13,501 bases of DNA from an uncultured beta proteobacterium (GTDB taxonomy: Bacteria; Pseudomonadota; Gammaproteobacteria; Burkholderiales; Burkholderiaceae): contig CAILON010000133.1 of the NCBI GenBank assembly GCA_903835865.1, forward strand, positions 1 to 13,501, in the 5' to 3' direction. Shown in pieces: positions 3,397-10,959 of this stretch. A program made the position numbers and the translations under genes. The notes beneath the pieces were generated by a model. It was not told the origin of the DNA, made no database searches, and saw nothing but the letters and a program-made list of their open reading frames with translations. Positions within the stretch are counted from its first letter, which is position 1. Each line of letters begins with the position of its first letter.

Positions 3397-4842
3397 ATGA
3401 AAGTATTTAGCATCTCATCTATTGTGGTTTTTTTCTGTGCGCTGACCAATGCTGCGATGGCGCAGGGCGTTGACTCAGCAAAGAATATGGTCCTAGAAGG
3501 CTATAACGATTTGCAGGGAAGAACTGCCTATCAACCCACTATTCAAAAACAAGGTAATCGATGGATTGCCTATATTGGACATCATGGTGATAACAAGCTA
3601 AATCCTCTGAATGGAAAAATGGAGGAGAACGGTACCTCTATTGTTGATGTCACTGATGTAAAGCATCCAAAGTATTTAGCCCACGTACCTGGAGAAGAAG
3701 GTAAGGCTGAGCAGGGCGGAGCCCAGATGGTTCGTGTTTGTAGTGGCGAGACACTTCCTAAGGCTAATAAGAATAAGTTTTATATGCTTCGGGTCTTCGG
3801 CAACCAAGCGCATGAAATTTGGGATGTGACTAAGCCGGAAGATCCTGTTCTATTGACAACAGTGGTAAAGGGCTTGAAAGGGACTCATAAGAGTTTTTGG
3901 GAATGCGATACAGGAATTGCATATCTTGTATCAGGCAATCCTCAATGGCGAACTAATCGCATGACCCAAATCTATGATCTTTCTGATCCTGAGAAGCCAG
4001 TATTCATTCGTGATTTTGGTTTAGTTGGTCAACAACCTGGTGCTTCAGGTGATGTTCCAGTGCAACTGCATGGTGCAATGTCTACTGGCCCTAAAGGCAA
4101 TCGTGTGTACTTTGGATATGGCACAAATACCAATGGCATTATTCAGATTGTTGATCGTGACAAATTGTTAAATGGCCCTAAAGACCCAACGCCAGAGAAC
4201 CTACTCTACCCCCAGATTTCTAGAGTGGATATGCCAGTCATGCATGGCGCACATACGACATTTCCATTAATGGATGTCAAGATTGAAGAATTCTCAAAAA
4301 ATTTACTGGGTTCTAAGCGAGACTTTTTAGTGGTTACCAATGAGGCAATTCAGAAGGAGTGCCTAGAGGGACGCCAAATGGTGTGGGTTGTGGACATCAG
4401 CAATGAGAAGAAGCCATTTGGTGTAGCCAACTGGGGAGTGCCTGAGAAAACTGCTAATTACTGCTCTAAGGGCGGTCGCTTTGGTACGCATTCTTCAAAT
4501 GAAAATATGACTGATGTCTTCTATCGTAAGTTGATGTTCTTCTCCTACTTTAATGCTGGGGTTAGGGCGGTAGATATAAGAGATCCATTTGCCCCAAAAG
4601 AGGTGGGCTATTTCATTCCTGCAATGAATGCAAATACTGTAGTACTGGAGACGCCTGTAACTCAAAGGGGTAAGTTACCGTTTACTGCAGCATCCGATAA
4701 GAAGGTAATTCAAACAAACAACGTAGAAGTAGATTCACGGGGTTACATTTATATCGTTGATCGCGCTAATACTGGGATGCATATTATTTCCCTTACCGGG
4801 CCTGCTAAAGCGATTGCCAATTGGAAGGCTGCCGATCGGTAA
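3397..4842 (+). CDS. Exported LVIVD-type beta-propeller protein
   Basis: A 481-residue secreted protein. Residues 1-22 form a signal peptide with an AMA cleavage site before Gln23. The mature part holds at least five copies of the LVIVD-repeat pattern (strand, D-(I/V/L)-(S/T/R), Pro-x2-P): near residues 80-99, 139-156, 190-208, 329-347 and 389-408. This points to a beta-propeller. Histidines recur at loop positions (HH at 62-63, His164, His225, His283, His286, His365), which could be a metal or substrate site, and four cysteines (115, 170, 322, 356) could form disulfides in the periplasm. The start is supported by GGAGA at 3388-3392. It is the first gene of a tight four-gene cluster, with the next gene 3 nt away. 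The catalytic or binding role is unknown; distant similarity to selenium-binding-protein-type propellers is possible but unproven. Confidence 0.9.
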   Translation: MKVFSISSIVVFFCALTNAAMAQGVDSAKNMVLEGYNDLQGRTAYQPTIQKQGNRWIAYIGHHGDNKLNPLNGKMEENGTSIVDVTDVKHPKYLAHVPGEEGKAEQGGAQMVRVCSGETLPKANKNKFYMLRVFGNQAHEIWDVTKPEDPVLLTTVVKGLKGTHKSFWECDTGIAYLVSGNPQWRTNRMTQIYDLSDPEKPVFIRDFGLVGQQPGASGDVPVQLHGAMSTGPKGNRVYFGYGTNTNGIIQIVDRDKLLNGPKDPTPENLLYPQISRVDMPVMHGAHTTFPLMDVKIEEFSKNLLGSKRDFLVVTNEAIQKECLEGRQMVWVVDISNEKKPFGVANWGVPEKTANYCSKGGRFGTHSSNENMTDVFYRKLMFFSYFNAGVRAVDIRDPFAPKEVGYFIPAMNANTVVLETPVTQRGKLPFTAASDKKVIQTNNVEVDSRGYIYIVDRANTGMHIISLTGPAKAIANWKAADR

Positions 4843-4845
4843 GTT

Positions 4846-5229
4846 ATGGGGTCTCATGCTTTTCATTCTCTGAAACTGCTTAAGTTAGCTCTAGCGGGCA
4901 TCTTCATACTTGGTGCGCTCTGTTGCCAGGCTGCCGAGAAGGAGTTTGAGTTAAATATTCAAAACGGTAAGGTTCCAAAAGGATCTTACTTAATGAAAGT
5001 GCAAAAGGGTGATCGCATTCGCTGGAAAGTGCTCAGTGATGCTGATGGTGAGCTCCACATTCATGCCTACCATATAGATCAGACAATTAAAGCTAAGGAT
5101 CCAAGCGTGTATTCGTTCATTGCTACTGCTACTGGTCGCTATCGAGTGGAGTGGCATCCTGAGAGTGAGCGTGGCAAAGGTATTCATCATTCTGAACCCT
5201 TGGCTTTACTTGAGATCTATCCGAAGTAG
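4846..5229 (+). CDS. Exported cupredoxin-like His-rich protein without Cys or Met ligands
   Basis: A 127-residue protein with an N-terminal signal peptide (hydrophobic 12-27, cleavage probably after Ala29 or Ala30). The mature part of about 97 residues has cupredoxin-like order: an N-terminal strand (EFELNIQNG), KGD-x-IRW (54-60), a His-rich loop LHIHAYHID (70-78), a strand ending in FIATATGRYRVEWH (91-104) and a C-terminal HHSEPLALLEI strand. A typical type 1 copper site needs Cys and usually Met, but the mature protein has no Cys and its only Met (50) is not in the ligand loop. Candidate ligands are His71, 73, 76, 104, 114 and 115, so a non-blue copper or other metal site is possible. It lies 3 nt after the propeller gene and overlaps the next by 1 nt. 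The fold is inferred from the pattern, not proven. Confidence 0.78.
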   Translation: MGSHAFHSLKLLKLALAGIFILGALCCQAAEKEFELNIQNGKVPKGSYLMKVQKGDRIRWKVLSDADGELHIHAYHIDQTIKAKDPSVYSFIATATGRYRVEWHPESERGKGIHHSEPLALLEIYPK

Positions 5230-6695
5230 TGCGTTCCTTAGTCGTTAGCTCCGTATTAAGCTTTTTTCTTATCCCATTTAATGTGGGTGCTCATAGTTTT
5301 GATGAGCGCTATGACCTTCCCATTCCCCTAGAATTTTTTCTGATGGGCAGTGCCATGATCTTGGGATTGAGTTTTTTGCTCATTCTGATATCAACTCAGT
5401 ATTGGAGCTACTTTGATAGATGGAAGGGGCAATACACTTTTGCCTTTTCAAGGAGTCCTTTGCTTGGCTGGCTAATATATTTTCTGCGGGCGATCAGTCT
5501 GTTACTGCTGGTTCTAGTAATCGCGGCGGGCTATTTTGGCCCCCAAAATCCCTTGATGAATTTAGCCCCAACTTTTATTTGGATTAATTGGTGGGTCGGA
5601 TTCTCCTTATGCATTTCACTCGTGGGCAATTTTTGGCCTCTCCTTAATCCATGGAGTGCATTATTTGATTGCCTTCATAAGGCCTTGCAACACTTCGGTT
5701 TAAAAAGACGTTTCCCTACCTTTACTGTGCCAGCTAAAGTGGGGATCTATCCTGCCACTTTCTTTTTGTTGATGTGGGGTTGGATGGAAGTAGTTTATCC
5801 AATTGCATTCGTTCCTCAAAAGATTGCTACGCTCGCTCTCATTTGGACGATTGTCAGTATGTTGGGTATGGCAGTACTTGGAAAAAGTGTATGGATTAAG
5901 CAATTTGACTTTTTCTCGATCTGCTTTAATTTGCTCGGAGAGTTCGGGATACTGGGTTTTCAAGCGCAGTCATCAATGGTGACGGTAAGGCTTCCTGGCC
6001 GTGGAATTTTATTGTCTGGGGACCACTATCACACCTCTAAGGGCTTAACCGCTTTCATTATTGCCATGTTAATTATCGTATTGTTTGATGGTATTCATGG
6101 GAGTGGTGCATGGCCATTTTTTCAAGAAGCTTTAAATATCATTGGACTTGACGCTACTCTAGGCAATGGGTACTTAGAGGGAACTATCGGCTTAATCTCT
6201 CTTTGGCTTTCTTTTTTTGGGGTCTACTACTTCGCTTGTTGGGTATCACATCAAATTGTGCCAACGGTCTCTATCGGCCAGATTATGCAACGTTTTTCTC
6301 GCCCTCTCATTCCTATAGCGATTGCCTACCTCTTTGCTCACAATTTCTCAAGTTTGTTTACACAAGGTCAGAGCATCATCTTTTTGATCTCTGATCCCTT
6401 TGGGCTTGGCTGGAATCTTATTGGTGGGGCTCAATTTCGACCAGTGATTGGCTTAATTGATGTTAGTCAGATTTGGTATCTGGCGGTATGTTCGATTGTT
6501 CTTGGGCATGTAATTGCTTTGGTATTAACGCATGCATATGCCATGCGCATCACTTCATCAGCAAAATACGCGACCTTAATGACTATCCCGCAAACTATTT
6601 TTATGATTTTACTGACAATGATGAGTCTCATCATTCTCGCTGAGCCATTAACCTCCTCTGAATTTTCTTTGCTTAATATGTGGCTTAGTAAATGA
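5229..6695 (+). CDS. Polytopic membrane protein, 'fenitrothion hydrolase'-like family
   Basis: A 488-residue integral membrane protein with a signal-like first segment (ending VGA before His22) and then roughly ten to twelve membrane spans. The sequence HSFDERYDLPIPL after the first segment, WINWWVG (118-124), NPW (140-142), FDGIHGSG (286-293), FAHNFSS-x-FTQGQ (369-381) and the span containing GHVIALVLTHAY (426-437) appear to be its conserved features. From memory, relatives in databases are often named fenitrothion hydrolase; that name comes from insecticide-degrading strains and says little about the native job. Several histidines (290, 371, 427, 435) sit in or next to spans and could bind a metal or haem. 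The GTG start overlaps the previous stop (TAGTG), indicating coupling, and the end overlaps the next gene by 4 nt (ATGA). Confidence 0.87.
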   Translation: MRSLVVSSVLSFFLIPFNVGAHSFDERYDLPIPLEFFLMGSAMILGLSFLLILISTQYWSYFDRWKGQYTFAFSRSPLLGWLIYFLRAISLLLLVLVIAAGYFGPQNPLMNLAPTFIWINWWVGFSLCISLVGNFWPLLNPWSALFDCLHKALQHFGLKRRFPTFTVPAKVGIYPATFFLLMWGWMEVVYPIAFVPQKIATLALIWTIVSMLGMAVLGKSVWIKQFDFFSICFNLLGEFGILGFQAQSSMVTVRLPGRGILLSGDHYHTSKGLTAFIIAMLIIVLFDGIHGSGAWPFFQEALNIIGLDATLGNGYLEGTIGLISLWLSFFGVYYFACWVSHQIVPTVSIGQIMQRFSRPLIPIAIAYLFAHNFSSLFTQGQSIIFLISDPFGLGWNLIGGAQFRPVIGLIDVSQIWYLAVCSIVLGHVIALVLTHAYAMRITSSAKYATLMTIPQTIFMILLTMMSLIILAEPLTSSEFSLLNMWLSK

Positions 6696-7459
6696 TGGTG
6701 AAAAAATTAATACCGCTAGCGCTTTTTTGGACTTATCTATTTTCATCATCAGCCTGGTCAATGGATTTTCAGATCTATTCAGCCGCCGGCGTGAAGCTCC
6801 CAATGGTGCAATTTGCCGCTGTCTTCAATGGCTTAAATCCAGGTGATCGAGTGGTGAATTCTTTTGATACTGCTGGAGCAGCAGAGAAACATTTTTTCGA
6901 GGACGCCAACAGCTCATGCTTAATCACTACCGAATCTAGAATAAATGAAGCATTAAGGACAGGGAGATTGAAGGCTTCAGCCCCCATTGCGCTTGCAGAT
7001 ACTGTCGCAGGTATTGCGAGCTCTAGCAAGGTAAGGCAACCCATCGAAACTAGCGAGCAACTAAGGAAGGTCCTGTTAAATGCACGCAGCATTGCATTCT
7101 CAGATCCAGCCAGGGGTGCAACCGTTGGCCGATATTTTCAATCCTTAATTCAACAGCTAGGCATTGAAAAGGAGGTGATGGCGAAAGCGATTTTGGCCTC
7201 TGATGGTGTAGAGACAATGAAGCTGGTTAAATCAAAAAAGGTCGAATTGGGCATCACTCAAGTGAGCGAAATCATTCAAGCCTGGCCTGAAAGTTTGCTT
7301 GGCCCTTTCCCGGGGGATATTGAGCTAGCAACTCGCTATTCTCTGTGGTGCAAAGATCCACATCAGGCGCAGATGGCCCAATTGATTAGTTTGATGCAAT
7401 CGACTTGGGGTTCTAGGGTTTTTACGGACAATGGCTTGCGTCCAGTCAGGAAGCCTTGA
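6692..7459 (+). CDS. Exported ModA-like substrate-binding protein
   Basis: A 255-residue periplasmic binding protein of the molybdate-binding (ModA, SBP_bac_11) type. Residues 1-23 are a signal peptide (cleavage near AWS). The mature part begins with a strand and IYSAAGVKLPM, matching the ModA first strand and Ala-Ser/Ala-Gly turn, followed by SSCLITTESRI (54-64), a position where ModA has its PADVFIS-type segment, PIALADTVAGIA, a SDPARGATVGRYF loop and a late KVELGITQVSEI strand. It starts 4 nt inside the preceding membrane gene. No permease or ATPase gene (modB, modC) is adjacent, so it may act as a sensor, chaperone or ligand supplier rather than an ABC-transport part. The nearby molybdenum hydroxylase makes molybdate or a related oxyanion an attractive ligand, but this is inference. 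Confidence 0.83.
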   Translation: MMVKKLIPLALFWTYLFSSSAWSMDFQIYSAAGVKLPMVQFAAVFNGLNPGDRVVNSFDTAGAAEKHFFEDANSSCLITTESRINEALRTGRLKASAPIALADTVAGIASSSKVRQPIETSEQLRKVLLNARSIAFSDPARGATVGRYFQSLIQQLGIEKEVMAKAILASDGVETMKLVKSKKVELGITQVSEIIQAWPESLLGPFPGDIELATRYSLWCKDPHQAQMAQLISLMQSTWGSRVFTDNGLRPVRKP

Positions 7460-7548
7460 TTCATGAGGGGGCTGCATCCTTGCGCCAATAATGATTTATA
7501 GTCATTTAAAACATAAAAAAGTATTAAAAATAGACTAAGGAGATAGGA
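7460..7548 (+). promoter_or_regulatory. Spacer with strong ribosome site before the molybdenum hydroxylase genes
   Basis: An 89-bp gap separates the ModA-like gene from the iron-sulfur subunit. It is AT-rich from about 7485 and ends with a perfect AAGGAG at 7537-7542, 6 nt before the ATG. No intrinsic terminator is visible, so readthrough from upstream is possible. No clear -35/-10 pair was found, though the AT-rich part could hold a separate promoter. Confidence 0.5.
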
Positions 7549-8046
7549 ATGCAATTAACCATTAATGGCCAAATTCATAATATTGATGTTGAGCCTAATA
7601 TGCCCTTACTTTGGGCGATTCGCGAGGTAGTTGGCTTAACAGGAACAAAGTATGGGTGCGGAGTTGCGCAATGCGGTGCATGCACTGTTTATATGAATGG
7701 TGAGCCAGTGCGCTCCTGTTCGGTGCCTGTATCGAGTGTTGGGGCAGCCAAAATTACAACGATTGAGGCGCTCTCTAAAGATAATTCCCATCCAGTACAA
7801 AAAGCTTGGATTGCATTGGATGTTCCTCAGTGTGGATATTGTCAGTCAGGCCAAGTGATGGCAGCAGCAGCCTTACTCAAGAGAAATCCTAAGCCAACGG
7901 ATGCTGATATTGATAATGCGATGTCCAATGTATGTCGTTGTGGAACCTATCAAAAAATTCGGGATGGTATACATGTGGCATCTGGGCAGAAAAAATTAGC
8001 AGATGTCCTTGCGCAATACGACGCTTCTCTAGCGACACGTGGATAA
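7549..8046 (+). CDS. [2Fe-2S]2 small subunit of a molybdenum hydroxylase (IorA-like)
   Basis: A 165-residue iron-sulfur subunit of the xanthine oxidase family. The plant-type ferredoxin cluster is bound by CGVAQCGAC (Cys37, 42, 45) and Cys57. The second, helical-domain cluster is bound by CGYC (Cys95, 98) and CRC (Cys129, 131). All eight ligands are present. It carries electrons from the molybdenum centre in the large subunit to an external acceptor. It has no export signal of its own, so if the complex is periplasmic it would travel folded with the Tat-bearing large subunit. Start is fixed by AAGGAG at 7537. The large-subunit gene starts a few bases after the stop. Family assignment is firm; substrate unknown. 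Confidence 0.94.
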   Translation: MQLTINGQIHNIDVEPNMPLLWAIREVVGLTGTKYGCGVAQCGACTVYMNGEPVRSCSVPVSSVGAAKITTIEALSKDNSHPVQKAWIALDVPQCGYCQSGQVMAAAALLKRNPKPTDADIDNAMSNVCRCGTYQKIRDGIHVASGQKKLADVLAQYDASLATRG

Positions 8047-8053
8047 GGGGAAG

Positions 8054-10282
8054 ATGATGAACACACAGAACAAGACATTGGAAAATCTTTCCCGTCGCGA
8101 TTTTATTATCAAGGGCACCCTAGTGGGTGGCGGCTTGATGCTGGGAATAGGCGCATTGCCAGAACTTGCCTTTGCGCAAGCAGATAGTAAATATGATCCC
8201 AATACCCCAACCCAATTTGGCGAAGCAGAGGTCAATGCATGGGTCAGCATTAAACCGGATGACACTGTATTTATCAGAATCGCCCGCTCCGAAATGGGCC
8301 AAGGCACCCGTACTGGTTTAGCGCAGTTAGTGACCGAAGAGTTGGAGTGCAACTGGAAAAAAGTTAAAACACAATCTGCTACTCCAGGGCAAAGCTTAGT
8401 GCGTAAGCGCGTTTGGGGTGAGCATGGCACCGGTGGTAGCCGTGGTATCCGGATTTCTGAAGACTACGTTCGTCGTGGCGCAGCAGCAGCGCGCATCATG
8501 TTGGTTCAAGCTGCTGCCAATCAGTGGAACGTTCCTGTTAGCGAATTAATCGTTGATAAGGGTGTTATTACCCATGTGCCAACAGGACGTAAAACTACTT
8601 ATGGAAAGGTGGCTGAACTTGCCTCTACCCTGACGCCACCCGATCCAAAGTCCATTACCTTAAAAGATCCTAGAACTTGGAAGGTGGCTGGACAGCCATA
8701 CGCTCGTATCGATACTGCCAATAAGGTCAATGGCACTAAGGTCTATGGTTTAGATTTGCAGATGCCTGGCATGCTTTGTGCTGCCGTCAAATCATGCCCC
8801 GTATTTGGTGGAAAGTTAGTGAGTTATGACGAGGCTAAGGTCAAAAATCTGCGTGGTGTCAAAGGCGTTGTCAGGGTAAATGACAATACGGTTGCACTGG
8901 TGGCAGATACCTGGTGGCGCGCCAAGACTGCCTTAGATGTTCTGCCTATTTTGTGGGATGAAGGTAAGGGTGCGAACGTATCACAAGCTGACATTTACAC
9001 AATGATGCGCGATGGATTGGATGAGCAGGGTGATTTCTGGCAACGTAAAGTGGGTGATGCACCCGCAGCAATATCTGGATCTGCCAAAAAAGTAGAGGCC
9101 ATTTATTACACGCCATTCCGTGCGCATGTCACCATGGAGCCCATGAATGCCACTGTGAAGATCACGGGCGATCGTGCGGAGGCATGGGTTCCTACGCAAA
9201 ATGGTGAAGGATCTTTTGCTGCACTATCTGAGGCCACTGGCTTTCCATTGGAGAAGTGCGAAGTTTATAAATTAGATTCAGGTTGCGGTTTAGGTCGTCG
9301 TGGATCTACGCAAGACTTTGTCAGATATGCAGCTAAGGTAGCCCAAGCGTATCCTGGAGTGCCTGTCAAAGTCATTTGGAGCCGTGAAGAAGATATGACG
9401 CACGATTTCTACCACCCAATAGCCATGGCAAAAATGACCGCTGGTATTGATGGCTCTGGCAATGTGACAGGCATGCATATTAAAGTAGCAGGTCAGTCAA
9501 TTAATGCACTGGCATCACCTCAATCTATCAAAGACGGCAAAGATGAGCGCCAGCTTCAGGGCTTTTATGAAAAAGGTCCAGATGCGCAGTTGGGATACAC
9601 CTTCCCCACTTTGCTAACAGAATATGTCATGAAGAACACCCTTGTTCCTGTTGGACCATGGCGTGGCGTAAATACTAATCAGAATGGCCTCTTCATGGAG
9701 TGCTTTATGGATGAGTGCGCCAAAGCAGCAGGCAAAGACCCTGTGCAATTTAGACAAGTCTTAATGCAAAGTCATCCGAAGCATTTAGGCGTATTAAATG
9801 CTGCCGCTAAAAAAGCCAACTGGGATAAACCTTTGCCTCCTGGACACTTTAGAGGCGTAGCGCAGTTTATGGGTTATGCCAGTTACTCTGCATGCGTTGC
9901 TGAAGTTTCTGTGCAAAACAATATCGTGAAGATCAACCGCTTGGTATTTGCTTTGAATTCTGGTCACGTAGTTAATCCGTATCTCACTCGCGAGCAAATT
10001 GAAGGTTCAGTAGCAATGGCTTTGGGTGCAATTTTTAATCCCGAGATCACTGTTGAGAATGGCCGCATCAAGGAGCAAAACTTGGATTCTTATCCTTTGC
10101 TCAAGTTAGCTTCCACGCCTCGTATCGAAACCGTTCTCGTGCCTACTTATGATTTTTGGGGCGGCGTAGGGGAACCTACAATTTGTGTAGTCGGTCCCGC
10201 TGTAGCAAATGCCATTTCCGCTGCCATCGGAAGGCCAGTTCGAAACTTCCCGCTTTATAAAGAAGGGCTGAGTTTGGCTTAA
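8054..10282 (+). CDS. Molybdopterin-binding large subunit of a xanthine-oxidase-family enzyme (IorB-like, Tat-exported)
   Basis: About 742 residues with a twin-arginine signal near the N-terminus (SRRDF at residues 13-17, hydrophobic stretch, then AFAQA), the layout of periplasmic IorB-like or membrane-associated aldehyde/isoquinoline oxidoreductases. Cofactor and active-site motifs follow in order: GQGTRTGLAQ (83-92), GSRGIR (128-133), HVTMEPMNA (358-366), GLGRRGSTQD, VGPWRGVN (533-540) and the terminal GGVGEPT with the catalytic Glu707. I take the ATG at 8054; the ATG at 8057 has better spacing to AAGGGG at 8045-8050, and a GTG at 8039 would overlap the small-subunit gene. Neither FAD subunit nor cytochrome c subunit is encoded next to it, so its electron acceptor is open. 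The substrate, a hydroxylated N-heterocycle or aldehyde, cannot be decided. Confidence 0.94.
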   Translation: MMNTQNKTLENLSRRDFIIKGTLVGGGLMLGIGALPELAFAQADSKYDPNTPTQFGEAEVNAWVSIKPDDTVFIRIARSEMGQGTRTGLAQLVTEELECNWKKVKTQSATPGQSLVRKRVWGEHGTGGSRGIRISEDYVRRGAAAARIMLVQAAANQWNVPVSELIVDKGVITHVPTGRKTTYGKVAELASTLTPPDPKSITLKDPRTWKVAGQPYARIDTANKVNGTKVYGLDLQMPGMLCAAVKSCPVFGGKLVSYDEAKVKNLRGVKGVVRVNDNTVALVADTWWRAKTALDVLPILWDEGKGANVSQADIYTMMRDGLDEQGDFWQRKVGDAPAAISGSAKKVEAIYYTPFRAHVTMEPMNATVKITGDRAEAWVPTQNGEGSFAALSEATGFPLEKCEVYKLDSGCGLGRRGSTQDFVRYAAKVAQAYPGVPVKVIWSREEDMTHDFYHPIAMAKMTAGIDGSGNVTGMHIKVAGQSINALASPQSIKDGKDERQLQGFYEKGPDAQLGYTFPTLLTEYVMKNTLVPVGPWRGVNTNQNGLFMECFMDECAKAAGKDPVQFRQVLMQSHPKHLGVLNAAAKKANWDKPLPPGHFRGVAQFMGYASYSACVAEVSVQNNIVKINRLVFALNSGHVVNPYLTREQIEGSVAMALGAIFNPEITVENGRIKEQNLDSYPLLKLASTPRIETVLVPTYDFWGGVGEPTICVVGPAVANAISAAIGRPVRNFPLYKEGLSLA

Positions 10283-10301: not shown

Positions 10302-10325
10302 AAAGCCACCGTAAGGTGGCTTTTT
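10302..10325 (+). terminator. Intrinsic terminator after the molybdenum hydroxylase genes
   Basis: A perfect 9-bp stem (AAAGCCACC with GGTGGCTTT) closed by a GTAA tetraloop of the stable GNRA class, with the T-run TTTTT ending at 10325. It lies 19 nt after the stop codon and should end transcripts of the 3397-10282 block before msrQ. Confidence 0.85.
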
Positions 10326-10368: not shown

Positions 10369-10959
10369 ATGCCTTATTTAAAACCTAGTTTCTTTATCCT
10401 CTCTTTGTTGCCAATCATGCGTCTGCTGTGGCTCGGGACGCACGATGGCTTGGGTGCCAATCCAGTGGAATGGATAACGCGCTCGACGGGAACCTGGGCC
10501 TTGGTATTTTTATGTGTCACTTTGGCAATGACTCCCTTACGCCTTCTTACCACTTGGACAATATGGATCAAGATGCGGCGGATGTTTGGCCTCTTTTGCT
10601 TTTTCTATGCCTTAATACATTTTTCGATTTGGCTCTGGCTTGATCAGAACTTTGATTGGCATGCGATGTTAAAAGACGTCATGGACAGACCCTTTATCAC
10701 AATGGGCTTTATCAGCTTTGTTTTGTTAATACCCTTAGCCTTGACTTCTAACCGTTGGGCCGTGCGTACCCTTAGTAAATATTGGAGCATGTTACATAAA
10801 TTAGTATATGTAATTGCTTGTACTGTTATAGCCCACTACTGGTGGCATAAGGCTGGGAAGAATGATGTTGGAACTGTGGCGATTTACGGCCTCATCCTAT
10901 TACTACTACTGTCTTTTAGAGTAACTATGATTAAACGGTATTTTAAAAAATCTGCTTAG
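10369..10959 (+). CDS. msrQ: MsrQ, haem-b membrane subunit of the methionine sulfoxide reductase system
   Basis: A 196-residue membrane protein of the MsrQ/YedZ family with six hydrophobic spans (about 7-22, 40-58, 73-91, 108-126, 141-160, 168-186). The haem-ligand histidines are visible: His84 (ALIHF), His143 (MLHKLVY) and His156 (AHYWWH). In E. coli MsrQ passes electrons from the quinone pool to the periplasmic molybdoenzyme MsrP, which repairs oxidised methionines in envelope proteins. No msrP gene lies beside it here; the upstream neighbour is an unrelated Tat-exported molybdenum hydroxylase, separated by a strong terminator. The ATG at 10369 is the only reasonable start; no clear Shine-Dalgarno precedes it. 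The stop overlaps the convergent outer-membrane gene by 4 nt. Confidence 0.92.
   Translation: MPYLKPSFFILSLLPIMRLLWLGTHDGLGANPVEWITRSTGTWALVFLCVTLAMTPLRLLTTWTIWIKMRRMFGLFCFFYALIHFSIWLWLDQNFDWHAMLKDVMDRPFITMGFISFVLLIPLALTSNRWAVRTLSKYWSMLHKLVYVIACTVIAHYWWHKAGKNDVGTVAIYGLILLLLLSFRVTMIKRYFKKSA

Follow-up and report, generated by a model that had tools for sequence, protein, structure and literature searches.

A recurring trio of propeller, cupredoxin-like and membrane protein genes, separable from the molybdenum hydroxylase locus beside it, in an uncultured beta proteobacterium

We analysed a stretch of 13,501 nucleotides (hereafter the window) from an uncultured beta proteobacterium of the Burkholderiaceae (GenBank assembly GCA_903835865.1, contig CAILON010000133.1), in which six plus-strand genes follow each other closely. 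They encode a propeller protein (PROP), a cupredoxin-like protein (CUP), a membrane protein (MEM), a ModA-like protein (MODA) and the iron-sulfur (FES) and molybdopterin-binding (MOCO) subunits of a molybdenum hydroxylase. The initial annotation, made from the window sequence, had read all six as a candidate module. Our comparison across genomes revealed that PROP, CUP and MEM form a real, recurring three-gene unit, which is separable from FES-MOCO, an older conserved locus. The window genome (G000) is a draft assembly of 478 contigs, 83% complete and 5% contaminated. In the following, labels with L denote fetched stretches and labels with G genomes; L002 and L117 are the same region.

The trio begins with PROP (3397-4842), an LVIVD-type propeller protein of 481 residues. 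CUP (4846-5229), a small protein of 127 residues, follows after a gap of 3 nt, and its end overlaps the GTG start of MEM (5229-6695), a polytopic membrane protein of 488 residues, in the sequence TAGTG. Both PROP, at its N-terminus, and CUP carry an export signal, as judged by eye. An ATGA overlap connects MEM to MODA, and 89 nt (7460-7548) separate MODA from FES. The gene coordinates and all four junctions in the initial annotation were reproduced from the window sequence.

In a sample of 121 genomes of the genus, orthologues of PROP (at least 73% identity) and MEM were found in the identical 12 genomes; a 13th PROP match, in G045, has 32% identity. Nine of the 12 have PROP and MEM on a single contig, separated by a few hundred bases. 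In G021, G111 and G114 the two genes are on different contigs, near a contig end in the latter two. The window MEM is 83% identical to that of the Polynucleobacter locus L002. We also considered the best 80 of at least 568 confirmed places matching a MEM profile, many of them with short flanks. CUP was located within 2.5 kb of MEM at 71 of these loci (68 of the 74 with an upstream flank of at least 600 nt), and PROP at 39 (37 of the 68 with at least 2.5 kb upstream). Over the same 34 loci, the mean pairwise identity is 0.73 for PROP, as opposed to 0.35 for CUP and 0.41 for MEM. A search for LVIVD-type propellers gave 44 matches in 43 of 112 MEM loci, all within 1.8 kb of MEM, the farthest at 1765 nt. 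They include two loci from other genomes of the class (L141, L143), one on a Variovorax plasmid (L082) and a weak match of 34 bits at a Rubrobacteraceae locus (L077); L082, L141 and L143 are rows of the propeller profile itself, L143 and L141 having been found earlier at 40 and 21 bits and the L082 propeller by its similarity to L143 (57 bits). The linkage of the first three genes into a conserved unit with metal and redox features was thus borne out. Nothing on this gene set was found in the open-licence PMC literature by searches not aimed at the gene order itself, in agreement with the earlier remark that no named system is known to have it.

PROP is highly conserved, and among the matches listed it is labelled at most as an LVIVD repeat protein; no Pfam family matched it at an E-value of 0.1. 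Its predicted model (pLDDT 77.1) has a propeller fold, for which Foldseek gave 5hrm as the best match (E 8.6e-19, TM 0.62) ahead of the first other protein at 1.5e-8, so that PROP can be placed with the LVIVD/5hrm-type propellers on the basis of this model. Histidines 62, 225, 286 and 365 and glutamates 316 and 369 are invariant in 26 aligned rows, down to 31% identity. In the model, His164, His225, His286 and His365 open the inner strands of four consecutive blades, which were assigned by hand without coordinates, and His365 stands opposite a histidine of 5hrm in the sequence alignment. We infer from the model that these histidines may cluster on the axis and form a metal site. Membership of PROP in the SBP56 family was rejected: PF05694 matched neither PROP nor anything in G000, and a profile comparison by hhalign gave a probability of 25 and an E-value of 0.00076 over 56 columns.

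CUP matched the Pfam family Cupredoxin_1 (PF13473) below its cut-off, with 14.9 bits against 27. His71, His73 and His104 are invariant in all 53 rows (52 distinct) of an alignment of members shorter than 260 residues plus the window protein, and no cysteine is conserved. A blue (type 1) cupredoxin was ruled out, as the Cys ligand is not conserved. The upstream partners of MEM on seven actinobacterial plasmids and one Variovorax plasmid scored 32-111 bits with a CUP profile, whose source set included three of the eight (Variovorax, Pseudonocardia and M. dioxanotrophicus). The gene upstream of MEM in Haladaptatus did not match the CUP profile.

MEM represents a membrane family that is widespread but absent from Pfam. 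His22 is present in all 88 non-gap rows of the alignment, preceded by Ala21 in 84 of them, and 85-89 of 92 rows retain Asp287, His371, Asp389, His427 and His435. The mature protein of proteobacteria could therefore begin with a histidine, as far as this Ala-His motif indicates. MEM-like matches occurred in 23 of 274 genomes of the class sample, 11 of them full-length and 12 partial. Five of the partial matches were inspected; they led to an alignment (A4) of membrane ferredoxins of about 510 residues. Such ferredoxins, kin of MEM, are found in L132-L136, and the gene of L136 has a NapH-like gene beside it. MEM aligned with A4 over 385 columns at an hhalign probability of 99.8 (E 3.4e-28). At the place of a short linker in MEM, A4 holds a cysteine-rich stretch with invariant cysteines. 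No cysteine is among the conserved columns of the MEM alignment (A1), and the iron-sulfur cysteine motifs of CcoG and NapH are absent from it. MEM members from Rubrobacter and Rubrobacteraceae (L074, L077) carry cysteine motifs at the position of the cysteine-rich stretch of A4, and it is possible, judging from these motifs, that they are intermediates between MEM and A4. A4 itself matched NapH (probability 95.4) and CcoG (94.3) over about 100 columns. Direct membership of MEM in either family was rejected because its profile scores were no better than those of the controls. We do not apply the label "fenitrothion hydrolase" to MEM-like proteins, as searches of the literature gave nothing usable on it.

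Several observations concern the surroundings of distant MEM genes. In some Alphaproteobacteria (L046, L049, L056, L063, L069), MEM frames of about 900 residues occur, apparently fusions of MEM with an additional part. This part matches a 786-residue protein without a Pfam match, and full-length relatives are encoded nearby in L049, L063 and L069. Related proteins of about 770-830 residues stand beside MEM in L139 (8519-11020), L142 (4926-7313), L144 (4300-6600) and L146 (2168-4495); those of L142 and L144 have no Pfam match and share an HxH motif at the same place. In L082, a pair of Variovorax genes downstream of MEM was considered as a molybdenum hydroxylase, for which profile searches gave no support; the larger scores as an LVIVD-type propeller.

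We also inspected the neighbourhood of MEM homologues in 19 plasmid records, 18 of them annotated, drawn from 62 records matching the window MEM and 11 matching the M. gallinarum MEM. Spread guided the choice of records, except for the last ones, which were added after copper genes had turned up on mycobacterial plasmids; the sample is therefore biased. Copper-related genes were found in five of the 18 annotated regions, a hand-picked count without a background rate. Near the MEM homologue are copper membrane monooxygenase (CuMMO) genes C, A and B on the M. dioxanotrophicus plasmid, CuMMO B on the M. chubuense NBB4 plasmid, CopC, a metal-sensitive regulator and a haem-copper oxidase subunit III on the M. 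gallinarum plasmid, PCu(A)C on the Sulfitobacter plasmid, and a heavy-metal P-ATPase and a cbb3-type oxidase on the Halomarina plasmid. Two regions were not counted as copper: Halolamina, whose MEM adjoins a propeller gene and whose cation P-ATPase has no stated metal, and Pseudonocardia, with a protein bearing a galactose-oxidase early-set domain. The remaining 11 annotated regions showed no copper-related genes. We regard the association with copper on plasmids as a lead rather than a test.

We propose, with a confidence that stays a little below even, that CUP and MEM serve a secreted propeller metalloenzyme by handling copper (or electrons). PROP would be this enzyme and carry an axial metal site. 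CUP would bind copper through its histidines and serve PROP at the envelope, and MEM would deliver copper or electrons on the periplasmic side, presumably on a scaffold shared with the membrane ferredoxins and devoid of their iron-sulfur domain. The trio itself, its co-occurrence, its separability from FES-MOCO, the predicted PROP fold, the conserved residues and the profile match of MEM to ferredoxins are computational results, whereas metal binding, copper as the metal, the direction of transfer and catalysis by PROP are what we infer here. A broader version of the proposal is rather doubtful: CUP-MEM would be an undescribed copper-handling or copper-reducing pair of Pseudomonadota, Actinomycetota, Nitrospinota and Chloroflexota, with MEM also in haloarchaea, in which MEM descends from membrane ferredoxins that lost their iron-sulfur domain and which serves PROP as a new class of copper propeller, CuMMOs and other exported metalloenzymes. 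If CUP-MEM did supply exported enzymes with copper or electrons, it would name a missing step in the building of periplasmic metalloenzymes, possibly including the copper monooxygenases that oxidise hydrocarbons, and PROP would gain a testable cofactor.

Several results weigh against copper handling by the trio. Among relatives of solved structure, the one closest to PROP is a hydrolase. Strict PROP was found in two of the 274 class genomes, one copy being a fragment with stops, versus full-length MEM in 11. CUP lies near MEM in just four of 13 further class loci (L137-L149) and in ten of the 19 plasmid loci. LVIVD propellers of 31-33% identity had no CUP or MEM match nearby in three of three plasmid regions, and the wider propeller family therefore does not need CUP-MEM. 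By eye, the third histidine is absent from the CUP of M. dioxanotrophicus, which is encoded beside CuMMO genes. The Ala-His motif of actinobacterial MEM is near the annotated start, which makes an N-terminal histidine freed by signal peptidase doubtful there. Compared directly with CcoG and NapH, MEM reached hhalign probabilities of 0.2-0.3, as unrelated controls did (0.1-0.3). Neither Foldseek nor VIA-align recognised a PDB fold for MEM, a result that speaks for neither a new nor an old fold. Finally, 13 of the 18 annotated plasmid regions are without the listed copper genes, in a sample chosen partly post hoc and without a background rate.

CUP and MEM could instead be an electron-transfer pair without any delivery of copper, MEM exchanging electrons with the quinone pool and CUP relaying them to or from PROP as a periplasmic oxidoreductase. 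The match of MEM to membrane ferredoxins points in this direction. In the one cluster inspected closely, the A4 gene of L133 stands with NapC/NirT cytochrome, NapG-like and NapH-like genes. Moreover, redox enzymes such as NicAB, a molybdenum oxidoreductase and Dyp-type peroxidases are encoded near MEM homologues. However, MEM lacks the ferredoxin cysteines and has shown no haem motif, and CUP is without the cysteine that blue copper electron carriers possess. We consider this reading possible, albeit with a low probability.

A hydrolytic role is less probable still and, in our view, unlikely. PROP would then be a hydrolase akin to the phosphotriesterase of Sphingobium, with CUP and MEM as binding protein and transporter for its substrate or product. 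The best relative of PROP by both fold and sequence is indeed the haloalkylphosphorus hydrolase 5hrm, yet the two sequences match well only across residues 358-469, the families scanned in the neighbourhood show no common enzyme or transporter theme, and CUP and MEM retain histidines and acids.

The two genes at the end of the row belong elsewhere. FES (7549-8046) encodes the subunit with two [2Fe-2S] clusters and MOCO (8054-10282; the listed open reading frame begins at GTG 8039) the molybdopterin-binding subunit of a molybdenum hydroxylase. Pfam assigned Fer2 and Fer2_2 to FES and MoCoBD_1 and MoCoBD_2 to MOCO, all above cut-off, which is the pattern of the xanthine oxidase family. Both proteins remained below every NCBIfam equivalog cut-off listed. 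MOCO displays a twin-arginine motif, SRRDFIIKG; the Tat model TIGR01409 gave 13.3 bits against a cut-off of 16.7.

Seven genomes (L101-L106, L116) hold FES-MOCO without the trio, in the order (SDR)-DUF(-)-RSU-PTER-FES-MOCO-MSRQ-SRAP(-), valid as far as each fetched stretch reaches; some stretches hold a few extra open reading frames. The trio is placed between PTER, a pterin dehydratase gene, and FES in the window, L002/L117, L003 and L004. In G073, FES-MOCO is at the trio-free locus L104 and the trio about 1 Mb away at L111. Another seven copies of FES-MOCO stand in a different gene context (L108, L109, L112-L115, L120). At least 47 of the 121 genus genomes, compared with 12 for MEM, have a MOCO orthologue (65% identity or more), in two cases a broken copy. 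MEM and MOCO are adjacent by coordinates in G000 and G029 only, and 20 kb apart on one contig in G042; other genomes with both have them on different contigs, and the MOCO side, inspected in G111 and G015, is free of the trio. Within 10 kb, MOCO accompanies MEM at eight of the best 80 loci (five of 32 when only loci with near-full flanks on each side are counted) and PROP at four of 39 (L002, L003, L004, L018), or two of the 30 with a downstream flank of at least 3 kb.

That all six genes constitute one envelope system around an exported molybdenum hydroxylase, as the initial annotation had it, is very improbable in the light of these counts, and we reject the six-gene system because the trio and FES-MOCO occur apart. 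The shared strand and tight spacing in the window and L002/L117, and the direct contact of trio and FES in L003 and L004, speak for it. Among the matches listed, a MOCO orthologue is also commoner in MEM genomes (11 of 12, versus 36 of the 109 others; Fisher p 1.1e-4); the genome lacking it is G021, which is 79% complete. This link is weak, since the test is uncorrected for kinship and genome size. Against the six-gene reading stand the trio-free locus in seven genomes, the distance in G073, the few MEM and PROP loci with MOCO nearby, the looseness of MODA and the sequence element ahead of FES described below. The initial annotation itself had named the regular occurrence of homologues of the first four genes without the hydroxylase as evidence against a joint module, and such separation was observed, with MOCO within 10 kb at only four of the 39 PROP loci. 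The molybdenum hydroxylase should not be annotated here as a member of the trio.

The gap ahead of FES contains a promoter-like element with the core TGATTTATAG (7492-7501, plus strand). In a comparison of 18 loci, the exact core lies 39-58 nt ahead of FES in the window, L117 and all seven trio-free genomes with the same locus, and is missing in L003, L004 and the seven FES-MOCO copies with other neighbours, of which L109, L112, L115 and L120 show a diverged look-alike by eye. A promoter function is suggested by this conservation alone, and FES-MOCO of the window seems to keep its own promoter-like element. A simple promoter scan found four sites in the region, against 15.6 in shuffled sequences, and none inside the gap at 7460-7548. 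Where the element is lacking, in L003 and L004, the trio directly adjoins FES, which makes joint transcription of trio and FES possible there. Downstream of MOCO, a stem-loop with a T run (10302-10325, plus strand) resembles an intrinsic terminator. The segment 10283-10340 folds at -21.5 kcal/mol with a z-score of -4.76, equalled by none of 200 shuffles, and the strong terminator claimed after the last gene is thereby supported. A simple consensus terminator scan gave five sites, below the shuffle mean of 7.9, and the stem-loop was not among them.

MODA (6692-7459, plus strand) is a solute-binding protein of the SBP_bac_11 family by Pfam, above cut-off. The ModA equivalog TIGR01256 scored 32.2 bits against a cut-off of 62.5. 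Orthologues of at least 48% identity are present in six of the 12 MEM genomes and in four of the 109 others; two of the latter are broken or truncated copies. The counts exclude weaker matches (27-37% identity). At the level of loci, MODA is within 10 kb of MEM at ten of the best 80. MODA is a loose companion of the trio with intermediate linkage. In another group of Burkholderiales (L053, L057, L058, L062, L072, L075), a MODA homologue closely follows MEM but is encoded on the other strand, an apparently independent second pairing.

The idea that the trio is a mere neighbourhood without joint function is the least probable of all, as the genes flanking it do differ between lineages, but PROP and MEM share the same 12 of 121 genomes and their strict adjacency is kept in distant lineages.

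Two further features of the window deserve mention. A small acidic protein of 71 residues, counted from an inner ATG, is encoded on the minus strand at 2679-2894 and overlaps the end of PTER; relatives were translated from L101, L104, L106 and L004, and an open reading frame of the same length occupies its place in L102, L105, L116, L117 and L003. The gene msrQ (10369-10959) follows the molybdenum hydroxylase. The usual partner family of MsrQ is MsrP. The msrP gene is on another contig of the window genome (G000:C394), whereas several genomes carrying the FES-MOCO locus have it some 5-7 kb upstream; in L004, msrQ is directly 3' of a 327-residue gene. We dropped MsrQ as a private partner of the molybdenum hydroxylase, as MsrP (NF003767) occurs in 115 of the 121 genus genomes, including G000.

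Among known systems, FES and MOCO have the same domains in the same order as the two-subunit molybdenum hydroxylases of the xanthine oxidase family (PDB 8gy3 for the large subunit), from which they differ by their scores below the listed equivalog cut-offs and by their separateness from the trio. PaoAC and IorAB are further enzymes of this two-subunit type. The closest structural and sequence relative of PROP is 5hrm, the phosphotriesterase or haloalkylphosphorus hydrolase of Sphingobium sp. TCM1, with 18% identity over the fold match; judging by the title of a paper on it, this enzyme is reportedly a seven-bladed propeller with a binuclear metal centre. The kinship of MEM to NapH and to CcoG, which reduces Cu(II) (PMC7558416), is indirect and runs via the A4 membrane ferredoxins, as MEM lacks their iron-sulfur cysteines and a direct profile match. 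The mtoX-SCO1/senC-mauG cluster differs from the trio, since PROP has no SBP56 match and none of the scanned window proteins matched SCO1 or MauG. However, its SBP56 methanethiol oxidase has strictly conserved His89, His90, His140 and His412 and is encoded with a putative copper chaperone (PMC5739008), and to that extent the cluster offers PROP a parallel in the way it may work, a copper enzyme encoded beside a chaperone gene.

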